From Bacteroidales bacterium (GTDB lineage Bacteria; Bacteroidota; Bacteroidia; Bacteroidales; WCHB1-69): a stretch of DNA of 56,943 nt. The stretch spans positions 1 through 56,943 of the forward strand of contig JAILCI010000038.1 in NCBI GenBank assembly GCA_024686335.1, written 5' to 3'. Under the pieces are notes generated by a model. It made no database searches. It was given only the letters and a program-made list of their open reading frames with translations, and had not been told where the DNA came from. Below are positions 52,697 through 56,943 of this stretch, piece by piece (the first letter of the stretch is position 1; each line of letters starts with the position of its first letter). Made by a program: the position numbers and the translations under genes.

Positions 52697-52845
52697 TGTT
52701 TTTCTCCCGCAGATTACGCAGATCTCGCAGATGAACGCAGATTGTTTTTTTTAGATCCTGGCGGATCTTATTCGCTTTGCTCATAGATGTTTTAACGCAA
52801 AGGTTCAAAGAGCGCAAAGACAGACAATCAAATTGAACCGGGTGC
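52697..52845. repeat. CGCAGAT periodic repeat and degenerate repeats
   Basis: CGCAGAT occurs four times at about 10-bp spacing (52707-52742). A hairpin AGATCC-TGGC-GGATCT follows (52752-52767), then AACGCAAAG/GCGCAAAGA words (~52793-52820). No gene is seen in this stretch, which leads into the MITE-like element. Confidence 0.55.
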
Positions 52846-52848
52846 AAA

Positions 52849-53303
52849 AAAATAAGGGAGTTATATACATGATGGCACAACAAATATGAGTGCAAAGTCA
52901 AAAAAATGCATTTCAACTTCAACATGATTTACTGAGGCACCTGCCCATAGAGCACGCGGGCGGGCAGGCCGACATGCGGTGCGGACGCGGTGTGAATGGC
53001 CGGCCTCCAACAGCGGCGTGCAAAGGCGCTTGCGTTTACAAAAATGCATGCTTTCCGTGTATATTCCCATTTGCTACATGCTGCATTTTTGTTCCCGTTT
53101 GCCGCCGATGTCAGAGGGCGGACAGAGCGGGCGGGATTCATGTCGGCTTGATCTTTTGGCAACTTTTCCATCAAGGGAAAAGTTGAAGAATTATATTTAT
53201 GGAAGTTGTTTGCCATAAAGCCCTTGCCTACCTCAAGAAAACATCTATTAGCAACATACTTGGGCATACAAGGTGCCATCAGGTATATAGTCCCCCAAAA
53301 TAA
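52849..53303. mobile_element. MITE-like element with terminal inverted repeats and flanking 7-bp direct repeat (copy A)
   Basis: The element itself spans 52856-53296 (441 bp). Its left end GGGAGTTATATACATGATGG is repeated inverted at the right end, where the reverse complement reads GGGGGACTATATACCTGATG followed by GC. AAAATAA occurs immediately outside both ends (52849-52855 and 53297-53303), as a target duplication would. The interior has a GC-rich block (~52930-53030). A ~240-bp part (53056-53296) recurs inverted at 56705-56943 with roughly 85-90% identity by eye. There is no transposase, so it would be non-autonomous. Reading frames inside it are not conserved between copies. Confidence 0.7.
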
Positions 53304-53780: not shown

Positions 53781-53808
53781 ATTTATTGTTGGTTATTTAT
53801 TGTTGGTT
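53781..53808. repeat. 14-bp tandem duplication at the restriction gene stop
   Basis: ATTTATTGTTGGTT occurs twice in a row. The minus-strand stop codon (53793-53795) lies at the junction, so the protein ends in KLTNNK. Extra copies would change the C-terminal residues. Confidence 0.75.
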
Positions 53809-56570
53809 AATTTCTGATACATCTTCATTAGTTCTGCCACGCATTCACTTTCTGACATGTGGATTGAAAAACCATAAGCTGCCATTACAGCCTTATCGTT
53901 TTCTTGATGGGCTTTTCTTAATTCAGGAGGCATTAGCACCTCATCATACAAATCAGCCAAACTGCTGTTGGGGTAAAGATTCCGAGCGTCTAATATGGCT
54001 TGAGCTGTTTCTTCAATTTTATTTTTCTGTGTTTCTGTGGGCTCTGGCCAAGGGAAGTTGTTGTAAACAATGGTGTTGCTGTAACTGTAGTCAGACTTCA
54101 ATCTTCCACATACGGCACGCATCCAACACATGTGAACATTTGACGTGAGTACACCAAAATGATATTGGGTTATCTGTTGCATTACAAACAACTTATCTCC
54201 TGGGATAATTTCCTTTGAAAGATAATCTATAGGAATATAGCGCCGATTTTCAGAAGACACCTTTGGAATTGCAACATAATCACTAGTACATTCAAATGGA
54301 GCCCCAAAAAGAGTAGGATTGTCTGCAGCTCGAAGTGTGCTTGTCCTTTTACTTGCAAGGCGAAACTCACGAACTCTTTCAATCCTTCTGATTATCTCAG
54401 GACATTTTTTAATTTCAGAAGGAGCTGCACCTTGAAGCCACAAACAATAACGAGGTTTCCTCTCTATAAAATCTTTTCCCATCATGTAATGGCGGATAAA
54501 TTGTACGGCAATGGGCTCTTTTTCAAGAAGTTCATTTTTTTCTTCTTCCGTGAGTATAAGATTTCCGTCATCAATAGGTTGTCCCCCCAAGCATATTTGC
54601 GGAACATTACTTAAGGGAAGCATTCTTTTTTCTATAAAAACATTGGGAGCGTCAAACAGATAACCGTTGATGTTACTAGCTTCTATAATTTGTTTGTCAT
54701 TCAAGAATATAACTTTAGCCTTATTATTTTTCGTTGTGCTAAAACCGACAATCACACAATGAACATGAGCCTTTCCCGAACTCTCCGAATTCCAACGGAA
54801 TGTCCGCCAGGCGAAATTTATTAGAATGTTATTCTCAAATAAAGGTTTCCATAAATTCGCAACAGATCCTCCCTGAGTGATGGAATTAGTTGAAACAAAT
54901 GCACATTTCACATCTGTATTAATTATATAATCAGTTGCTTTTTTGAACCAGCAACAAACATAATCCAAATCACCCACACCTTGCCAATTCTTACCGAAGG
55001 TATCAATGACGTCTTCTTTCTGTTCTCCGTCCATCCAGCGTGCTCCAATAAAGGGAGGGTTTCCAACTATGTAATTCAACTTTTCTTTTGGAATAATCTC
55101 TTCCCAGTTCATTCTTAGGGCATTTCCACGGAGTATGTTACGATACGTTTTTAATGGTAACATATCCAATTCTCTCTTGATAATCCCCTGTGTCTCTTTG
55201 AGCATCTGGCTTTCGGCTATCCATAAGGCAGTTGTAGCCACATCCACGGCAAAATCATTGATTTCGATACCGTAAAATTGGTGAATGCCAACTTTTACAG
55301 GTGTGTGCTCGTCGTCAAAGCCCAATGTGATTTGACCTTTATGTAACTCTGCAATGGCCTTGTTCTCCAATCTGCGTAACGAAAGATATGATTCCGTTAA
55401 AAAGTTACCGCTCCCACAGGCAGGATCAAGAAATGTCAAAGAGGCCAGTTTGTCTTGATATTTGGTCAGAGCCGACATACGTTGTTTCTCTATGGGAATA
55501 TCTCGTATTTGGTCCAGCTCCTGTTTCAAATCATCCAAGAATAAAGGGTCTATGACTTTATGGATGTTTTCTATAGAGGTATAGTGCATACCTCCTTTTC
55601 TACGTGTTTCCTGGTTCAATGTGCTTTCAAACACACTTCCGAAGATGGTCGGTGATATCTCACTCCAATCAAAGTCACTGCTTGCATTGTCAAGGAGCAA
55701 CTGAGCTATTCTATCGTTAAAAAAGGGAATCTCAATATCTTTTTCACTGAAAAGGCCTCCATTGCAATAAGGAAATGCTTTCAGTTCTGGACGCATATAC
55801 TTGTCCCGTTTGTCCAATGGCGTATCCAACACCTCAAACAACTTGATTAGCGCCTCCCGCATGTCACCGTGCCCAGGCTCGAAACGAGAGAGGTAATCAT
55901 GAAAGATATTATGGCTACTGAAAATGCCAGCGTCCTCAGCATATAGACAGAACACCAGACGGACACACAAAATGTTCAAACTTCTGAGAGAGTGCTCGTC
56001 TTTGTCAATATACTGCTTGAGTAATTCATCATAAATCTTACCGATGATTTCTCCTGCTTTTAATGAAACCTCCATCTCTTTCTTGATATGGATGTTTTCA
56101 CTATCCACTAAAAAAGACAATCTATAGTATTCCTTTTCTAGATTTTCCAACAGAACTTCTTCGGGCTCGCTGTTGGGTTGCTCCATATCATAAATCAGGA
56201 ATGACTTGAAATTACAGGTGACAATCCATCGGGGTCTTTCACTATAGGGAAGGTCTGCCGAATAGCGCTTGGCTTGTTGAAATGGATTTAGCAGGGTGCC
56301 GTCACTTTGCTTGATTGGTGCTCGTAAATCTTTATCGATGCTCTTTTGCTCGATTAACACATGTGTTGCCCGAATATAGCCATCTATGAAGCTTGTATGA
56401 TCTAACTTGACTTGGCTTTCGAACCGAATATACAATTCAGGCTTATCGATAGCAAAAACATCCCTAAGAAGACCTAACCAGAAGGGTTGGCTTTCACCTT
56501 TCTCGTAACCTCTGTCTTTCCATAATTGTGAGAAATCTTTGGCGGCTTTTTGTTGTATTCTACTATCCAT
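53793..56570 (-). CDS. MmeI-like single-chain restriction-modification enzyme (type IIG/IIL)
   Basis: A 925-residue protein with the MmeI plan. An N-terminal nuclease has Asp63, Glu74 and Lys76 (DGYIRATHVLIEQKS), a PD-(D/E)xK-type site. A helical connector follows, then an N6-adenine methyltransferase with SAM motif LDPACGSGNF (~381-390) and catalytic NPPF (~504-507). The last ~250 residues should hold target recognition. In this family one chain both methylates and cuts. All key residues are present, so it is probably active. The ATG at 56570 is preferred because the ATG at 56600 lies upstream of the -7 element. No separate specificity gene is nearby. Confidence 0.85.
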   Translation of the reverse strand: MDSRIQQKAAKDFSQLWKDRGYEKGESQPFWLGLLRDVFAIDKPELYIRFESQVKLDHTSFIDGYIRATHVLIEQKSIDKDLRAPIKQSDGTLLNPFQQAKRYSADLPYSERPRWIVTCNFKSFLIYDMEQPNSEPEEVLLENLEKEYYRLSFLVDSENIHIKKEMEVSLKAGEIIGKIYDELLKQYIDKDEHSLRSLNILCVRLVFCLYAEDAGIFSSHNIFHDYLSRFEPGHGDMREALIKLFEVLDTPLDKRDKYMRPELKAFPYCNGGLFSEKDIEIPFFNDRIAQLLLDNASSDFDWSEISPTIFGSVFESTLNQETRRKGGMHYTSIENIHKVIDPLFLDDLKQELDQIRDIPIEKQRMSALTKYQDKLASLTFLDPACGSGNFLTESYLSLRRLENKAIAELHKGQITLGFDDEHTPVKVGIHQFYGIEINDFAVDVATTALWIAESQMLKETQGIIKRELDMLPLKTYRNILRGNALRMNWEEIIPKEKLNYIVGNPPFIGARWMDGEQKEDVIDTFGKNWQGVGDLDYVCCWFKKATDYIINTDVKCAFVSTNSITQGGSVANLWKPLFENNILINFAWRTFRWNSESSGKAHVHCVIVGFSTTKNNKAKVIFLNDKQIIEASNINGYLFDAPNVFIEKRMLPLSNVPQICLGGQPIDDGNLILTEEEKNELLEKEPIAVQFIRHYMMGKDFIERKPRYCLWLQGAAPSEIKKCPEIIRRIERVREFRLASKRTSTLRAADNPTLFGAPFECTSDYVAIPKVSSENRRYIPIDYLSKEIIPGDKLFVMQQITQYHFGVLTSNVHMCWMRAVCGRLKSDYSYSNTIVYNNFPWPEPTETQKNKIEETAQAILDARNLYPNSSLADLYDEVLMPPELRKAHQENDKAVMAAYGFSIHMSESECVAELMKMYQKLTNNK

Positions 56571-56589
56571 AAAGTATATTTTGTCGTGG

Positions 56590-56597
56590 CAAAAATA
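56590..56597 (-). promoter_or_regulatory. -7 element TATTTTTG for the restriction gene
   Basis: On the minus strand TATTTTTGCC lies 19 bp upstream of the chosen ATG and overlaps the rejected upstream ATG. Confidence 0.6.
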
Positions 56598-56704
56598 CAA
56601 AATTAAGCAAAGTGTAGTGATTCTCGTTAAGCATTATCTATCTTTGTAGCCAAAATAATTAGTCTGAAAGAAAGAAAAAGATAATAAATGCGGAAAGAAA
56701 AAAA

Positions 56705-56943
56705 GGGGGCTATATCCCTGATGGCACCTCGTGTGCCCAATTATGTTGCTAATAGACGTTTTTTGAGGGAGATAAGGGCTTAGTGGCATGCAACTCCCAT
56801 AAATATAATTCTTCAACTTTTCTCTTGATAGAAAAGTTGCCAAAAGATCAAGCCGACATGAATGCCGCCCGCTCTGTCCGCCCTCTGACATCGGCGGCAA
56901 ACGGGAACAAAAATGCAGCATGTAGCAAAAGGGAAAATACACG
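56705..56943. mobile_element. MITE-like element, copy B (inverted, runs off the window)
   Basis: It begins GGGGGCTATATCCCTGATGG, matching the terminal repeat of copy A, and continues as the reverse complement of 53056-53296 with scattered substitutions. The far end is outside the window. The stretch 56601-56704 between the restriction promoter and this copy holds nothing else recognisable. Confidence 0.7.

Follow-up and report, generated by a model that had tools for sequence, protein, structure and literature searches.

IS1595-family elements usually make 8-bp duplications, according to the consulted parts of two reports (PMC8101967, PMC12561309). Much smaller elements have been assigned to the same family, and the portion of PMC3852290 available to us lists ISHwa6 as such a case (165 bp, 7 copies, IR 25, DR 8). 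That miniature elements can also pick up internal sequence is indicated by the BrickBuilt MITE, which trapped an internal 23-nt repeat (PMC4596501, in the consulted sections). Here we describe a short element that probably belongs with the IS1595-type miniature elements and that carries a structured core. It lies in an uncultured member of Bacteroidales, within a contig (C38) of 56,943 bp. The whole of this stretch is referred to below as the window.

The initial annotation had proposed a non-autonomous miniature element of 441 bp. A miniature element it is, with a size that we read as 440 bp (52856-53295, + strand, as set by the outermost end bases). The ends, read from the window sequence, are GGGAGT-TATATACATGATGGCAC from 52856 and, after reverse complementation, GGGGAC-TATATACCTGATGGCACC from 53295. 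The left terminal inverted repeat, GGGAGTTATATACATGATGGCAC, occupies 52856-52878 (+), and the right one, GGGGACTATATACCTGATGGCAC as its reverse complement, occupies 53273-53295 (-). Within them the arms 52862-52878 and 53273-53289 are 17 nt long and 94% complementary, and these ends are shared across copies, so the inverted ends noticed initially were borne out. The element is flanked by the target-site duplications AAAAATAA (52848-52855) and CAAAATAA (53296-53303), identical at 7 of 8 bases; the AAAATAA seen just outside both ends corresponds to these seven identical bases. Open reading frames overlapping the 440 bp reach at most 116 aa, and inspection by eye revealed no transposase among them, in agreement with the non-autonomous nature suggested at first. 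The GC-rich core module (52945-53188, + strand; positions 97-340 of the element used as a query) has a G+C content of 0.557. It had been called unlike its surroundings, which holds against the intergenic DNA on the two sides (0.403 and 0.310) but less so against the gene to the left of the element (0.489).

A second copy, in the opposite orientation (56705-56943, - strand), is interrupted by the end of the contig. Between the two inverted copies sits a gene for an MmeI-type restriction-modification protein of 935 aa (53793-56600, - strand) with five MmeI Pfam domains. A composite transposon around this gene is disfavoured, as a separate duplication already brackets the first copy; this was judged from the first copy, because the second runs off the contig at its outer end. 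Another 17-nt inverted repeat (94%) pairs 52777-52793, outside the element, with 53238-53254, inside it, and may reflect chance or an older rearrangement.

We searched for further copies in the host genome (G000), a 99.85% complete draft of 2.74 Mb in 64 contigs. At least 44 matches to the element were found (the best 40 of 72 candidates were scored), and searches with each end separately gave further places (40 candidates scored). Altogether 56 places were collected, comprising 54 fetched loci and the two copies in the window. Several contigs, that of the window included, start or finish inside a copy, and the copy number is therefore a lower bound. By the thresholds set, both ends were recognised in 36 of the 56 places, while the other 20 look truncated, diverged at one end or interrupted by contig ends. 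Allowing two mismatches at most, we counted 98 sites of the end pattern TATATACNTGATGGCA in the genome, as opposed to 4 for the reversed control. The 36 complete copies range from 187 to 456 bp, with 24 of them exceeding 400 bp. Among these 24 the median pairwise identity is 0.894 and the highest 0.969. Shorter copies look like internal deletions: three of them (L048, L052 and L057) share a junction joining query positions 116 and 279, and L056 comes close to it. The many copies with common end points asked for initially were thus found.

Because insertion sites are A/T rich, flanking duplications were evaluated by comparing true left-right pairs of flanks with mismatched pairs. At a fixed offset, the 8-bp flanks of the 36 complete copies are identical at a fraction of 0.781, compared with 0.520 for mismatched pairings, and among lengths from 5 to 12 the contrast is sharpest at 8. 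Perfect 8-bp duplications at this offset are present in 9 of the 36 copies (fraction among mismatched pairs, 0.018). If an offset of one base is allowed on each side, 18 are perfect (mismatched fraction, 0.083), 26 retain at least seven of the eight bases, and none of 2000 permutations reaches the observed sum. The duplications vary from copy to copy, as the initial check required. The 7-bp duplication proposed for the window copy is real, but the length typical of the family is 8 bp, of which this copy keeps seven. In 10 of the 36 complete copies no more than six of the eight duplicated bases remain. Such eroded duplications, together with the median identity of 0.894, indicate that many copies are old and that the family is not all recent.

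Empty sites were sought by joining the flanks of ten copies and searching the joints in 40 genomes of the genus (seven candidates scored per genome). Among the matches listed, at least five of the ten joints are spanned by a continuous match in an element-free relative. The match is gap-free for about 30 bases on each side of the junction for L013 (G017, 78% identity) and L021 (G021, 67%). Indels of about 2 to 22 bases occur nearer the junction for L058 (five genomes, 70-76%), L024 (G017 and G021, 71-74%) and L036 (G021, 67%). Conservation in the element-free relatives does not extend to the target octamers. The joint of L054 was not counted as spanned, as a few short matches in a repetitive stretch pass it by at most eight bases. 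For L022, L030, L046 and the window's own joint, no spanning relative was present among the matches listed from the 40 genomes. The element-free locus that the initial annotation had asked for was thus obtained at five of the ten sites, as collinear relatives, but not at the window's own site. Of 104 genomes searched across the family, 25 contain a match to at least part of the element; in three members of the genus (G003, G018 and G022) it is mainly the ends that match, and the sequence they enclose is different. The matching kin include four Bacteroidales MAGs obtained from water buffalo, sheep and yak (RGIG7251, RGIG7025, RGIG9758 and RGIG9735), and the host itself is probably a ruminant-gut organism. 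Distant blastn searches of plasmid and GenBank phage collections returned no match to the MITE.

The family members are thus short, free of a transposase by eye and bounded by shared inverted ends, with differing duplications in the host and empty sites in relatives. The initial reading of the window element as a MITE is supported by these observations. We consider it probable (about 0.87), judging by sequence, that the element is a non-autonomous mini-transposon of the IS1595 kind, moved in trans by a DDE transposase. The MITE part of this reading is firmly supported and the assignment to IS1595 is well supported. A DDE transposase supplied in trans would recognise the 22-23-bp ends, GGG-N3-TATATAC-N-TGATGGCA, excise or copy the element and insert it, with an 8-bp stagger, into an A/T-rich site. 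The 8-bp duplication would remain after repair, and the core would travel along as a structured repeat.

A strong candidate for the mover comes from viral contigs. A scan of these for GGNNNTATATACNTGATGGCA revealed 21 stretches with the end pattern; these IMG/VR contigs probably come from rumen samples. One contig contains a complete element of 1,485 bp (L148:304-1788) with the ends GGGAACTATGTACATGATGGCA and GGGAACTATATACCTGATGGCA, in which 19 of 22 and 21 of 22 terminal bases, counted by eye, are identical to those of the MITE. It is flanked on both sides by AAAAATTT, an 8-bp duplication, and has the ends alone in common with the MITE. Its intact transposase of 311 aa matches nearly the whole of profile NF033547 (202.8 bits, cut-off 75) and both IS1595 Pfam domains (Zn-ribbon and DDE_Tnp_IS1595). 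The family that the initial annotation did not recognise can therefore be named as IS1595-type, and its guess of a transposase residing elsewhere gains support from this IS1595-family element, whose ends are almost those of the MITE.

Related transposases occur in several other places. The one of L142 is very similar to that of L148, with flanking octamers at the nearest opposite end that do not match. A genome of the same family as the host (G062, locus L153) encodes a transposase 54% identical to that of L148, between GGGAACTATATAC / GGGAACTATATACCAGTTGGCA-type ends that are each flanked by eight A; these ends (TATATACCAGTTGGCA) are further from the MITE ends than those of L148. In G026, of the same genus, an IS1595 transposase is split over two frames between related ends. 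A tblastn search of GenBank phages with the L148 transposase gave five records, the best with 40% identity. In the host draft (99.85% complete) our searches found no IS1595 transposase of full length, which means that the mover may be lost or external. We infer that an IS1595-type transposase moved the copies and that it is or was provided by another replicon, either since lost or carried by a phage. Supply by phages is plausible. The contigs are classed as viral by the collection they come from, and two of them (L134 and L135, the latter being the contig that holds L148) encode a protein that by eye looks like a tail-sheath protein.

Further elements on viral contigs have MITE-type ends, and the 8-bp A/T-rich sequences on their two sides match (L134:9247-11291, L145:577-1862, L133:81-435 and L143:9205-9698). 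Unrelated reading frames lie inside some of them, one of 321 aa in L145 and three of 108-240 aa in L134. In L139 (8624-10485) a pair of MITE-type ends, whose flanking octamers do not match, encloses a GHKL-ATPase-like gene of 520 aa (HATPase_c_3; PADLOC MzaB model, E 2.8e-22). Elsewhere on this viral contig (L139:5627-8490) a protein of 764 aa is encoded, in which RuvC-like motifs were recognised by eye and a Cas12f-type domain scored below threshold (E 0.03; 14.9 bits, cut-off 26.3). Its gene adjoins eight repeats at a spacing of 65-66 bases. PADLOC gave no match for this protein, and the stretch may represent a compact phage CRISPR-Cas12 locus.

The main rival concerns the identity of the mover. 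Instead of a full-length IS1595 transposase, short IS1595-like elements resident in the host (about 1 kb, ends CAATAGATAC..GTTGGC) could have mobilised the copies. Such elements belong to a lineage with CAATAGATAC..GTTGGC or GTTGAC ends, found in the host and several of its relatives, whose intact proteins are roughly 280 to 310 aa long. All four loci with IS1595-like genes in the host are of this short, aberrant type. Twelve proteins of the lineage, aligned with the host's own protein from contig C34, are 43-57% identical. The ends of two short elements match the MITE end pattern at 13 of 15 fixed bases. The elements are also present in five of the seven genus genomes with MITE matches of at least 250 bases and in three of the 33 others (Fisher p 0.0015), although the compared genomes are related and the test is not independent of descent. 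Nevertheless, no 8-bp duplication was seen at the ends of the short elements, and they do not have GGG termini. Moreover, the four proteins of this type that were aligned with full-length relatives are without the segment holding DETYxGG. The corresponding DESYFG is part of the catalytic site in an IS1595-family transposase, as stated in the consulted part of PMC12561309. We therefore regard this explanation as unlikely and prefer movement by a full-length IS1595-type transposase. Members of the short lineage with CAATA-type ends were seen at L082, L083, L109, L114-L116, L118, L123-L126, L128 and L129.

In addition to what was noted initially, the GC-rich core is a structured repeat that is also found apart from the MITE ends. 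In g10 genomes, blocks of it (query positions about 97-181 and 243-343) occur with unrelated flanks, which places them outside the host's genus. The predicted fold consists of a long hairpin, H1 (52968-53147, + strand; basal stem GCCGACATG...CATGTCGGC, variable tip), and a second hairpin, H2 (53147-53185, + strand; stem 53160-53169 / 53176-53185, loop 53170-53175). RNA energy z-scores of the core are -3.3 and -3.2 on the two strands. Outside the host, 29 loci were compared for the basal stem of H1: in 19 it is an inverted repeat that pairs perfectly over 8 bp or more, and the other 10 have no 8-bp stem. These stems differ in sequence, for example GAACAAACG/CGTTTGTTC and GAACGACAA/TTGTCGTTC.

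H2 is a 40-nt hairpin of the form NNNN-CTTTT-NN-ATCAAG-NN-AAAAG-NNNN. A search with N free and with TTGAT and ATCAAG fixed found matches in 8 of 295 genomes of the order, with 42 copies in the host genome and the seven other genomes belonging to five other families; the reversed control gave none among the matches listed from the 295 genomes. In 23 distinct H2 sequences, five of them from the host, 98.5% of cells pair compared with a shuffled mean of 83.2 (none of 500 shuffles as high), with five of the 11 stem pairs invariant by design since the pattern required CTTTT and AAAAG. Eight pairs changed on both sides, a number reached by one of 500 shuffles. Covariation scores 0.395, compared with 0.095 (0 of 500). 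When the partner is slid by one to three columns, pairing falls to 41-53%. The pattern also required a 6-base loop and four bases before CTTTT, which left out L070 (7-base loop) and L038, L065, L067 and L068 (three bases); the stems of these five pair as well. On these comparisons, H2 retains its pairing through compensatory changes.

The sequence CTTGAT (53147-53152) is complementary to the H2 loop ATCAAG, and a pseudoknot is possible. Limited evidence for it comes from two g10 rows (AAAGAT or GAAGAT, loop ATCTGT) that retain five of six loop pairs and from one further G-U row, because TTGAT and ATCAAG were fixed in the search. Rfam contains no credible match to the core; the hits were STnc630 at 19.2 bits (cut-off 55) and mir-562 at 16.5 bits (cut-off 100). 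The core may act as a structured RNA or as a recognition element in single-stranded DNA.

The dispersal of the core raises the question of whether the hairpins themselves are the mobile unit and the terminal repeats merely incidental flanks. In agreement with this, core blocks lie outside MITE ends in the g10 genomes and H2 is spread over five other families. In addition, homology between copies outside the host stops within 4 bases of the H2 end in 21 of 37 pairs and within 16 bases in 33 of 37, the pairs sharing sequences and not being independent. It runs past H2 in L268/L275 (74 bases), L266/L274 (297), L071/L100 (299) and L072/L075 (28), and at the other end of the core its extent varies widely. 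In the host, however, it is the inverted ends that the 8-bp duplications border directly, and both ends persist even where much of the core is gone (as in L060, 187 bp). As an account of the host family, this possibility is very improbable. In two genomes of one other family (L266, about 1500-2056, and L274, about 977-1535) a solo H2 sits just upstream of the same gene, whose protein starts MEQxYSNYTNRILNLRQAKIHGEV.

That the ends are a chance inverted repeat beside an A/T-rich coincidence, a caution attached to AAAATAA at the outset and suggested by the A/T-rich flank and the seven of eight bases retained by the window copy, is hardly credible given 56 places of shared sequence, 36 of them with both ends, and is refuted at the family level by the mismatched-pairing control.

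The preferred reading of the element as an IS1595-type MITE can be joined with the data on the core into a broader one, which we offer tentatively and rate somewhat below even odds. The core would be an unrecognised Bacteroidales structured family (the 40-nt, perhaps pseudoknotted hairpin preceded by a hairpin domain of some 110-250 nt), dispersing by itself with a nearly fixed 3' end at the last hairpin and captured as cargo by IS1595-type MITEs, whose transposases would be supplied by phages. In that case a single transposition system would serve phages and host genomes alike. The presence of matching ends on viral contigs points to phages as possible carriers of both the transposase and the cargo versions of the same element. 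For uncultured gut Bacteroidales, the MITE adds a family for which a strong candidate mover is available, and one of those repeats that break assemblies, as seen from the contigs that finish inside copies. The core matters more. Compensatory changes preserve its pairing in several families of one order, with no credible Rfam counterpart; it is mobile by at least one route and can be put to the test as a new element of structured RNA or single-stranded DNA.

A literature search, judged by titles and the openings of abstracts, found no description of this element, and one using its DNA words returned papers that, by title, are apparently unrelated. The main text of a 2024 review of prokaryotic MITEs (PMC10969869) contains neither 'IS1595' nor 'Bacteroid'. 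Compared with IS1595-family elements such as ISApl4 of the IS1016 group, as portrayed in the consulted part of PMC12561309, the window element has the same mostly A/T-rich 8-bp direct repeats and GGG-starting ends but is without a transposase. The IS1595-type MITE of Haloquadratum walsbyi, ISHwa6, is likewise short, non-autonomous, flanked by 8-bp repeats and attributed to IS1595; it differs in being archaeal and shorter, and a structured core is not mentioned in the section of PMC3852290 that we used. MITE239, MITE464/PgRS and BrickBuilt of Porphyromonas gingivalis are also MITEs of Bacteroidota, but their ends, as given in the excerpts of PMC4596501, are by eye IS5-family-like (GAGACC..., ACGTCAG...) and not TATATAC-N-TGATGGCA. 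REP/BIME palindromic repeats, as outlined in the sources consulted, resemble the core module in being dispersed hairpin repeats, yet they are 20-40 bp long, whereas the module described here spans about 170-220 bp and has two hairpins. Set against these systems, the MITE is of a kind already known, and the structured core is the more novel part and the one that would surprise a specialist.
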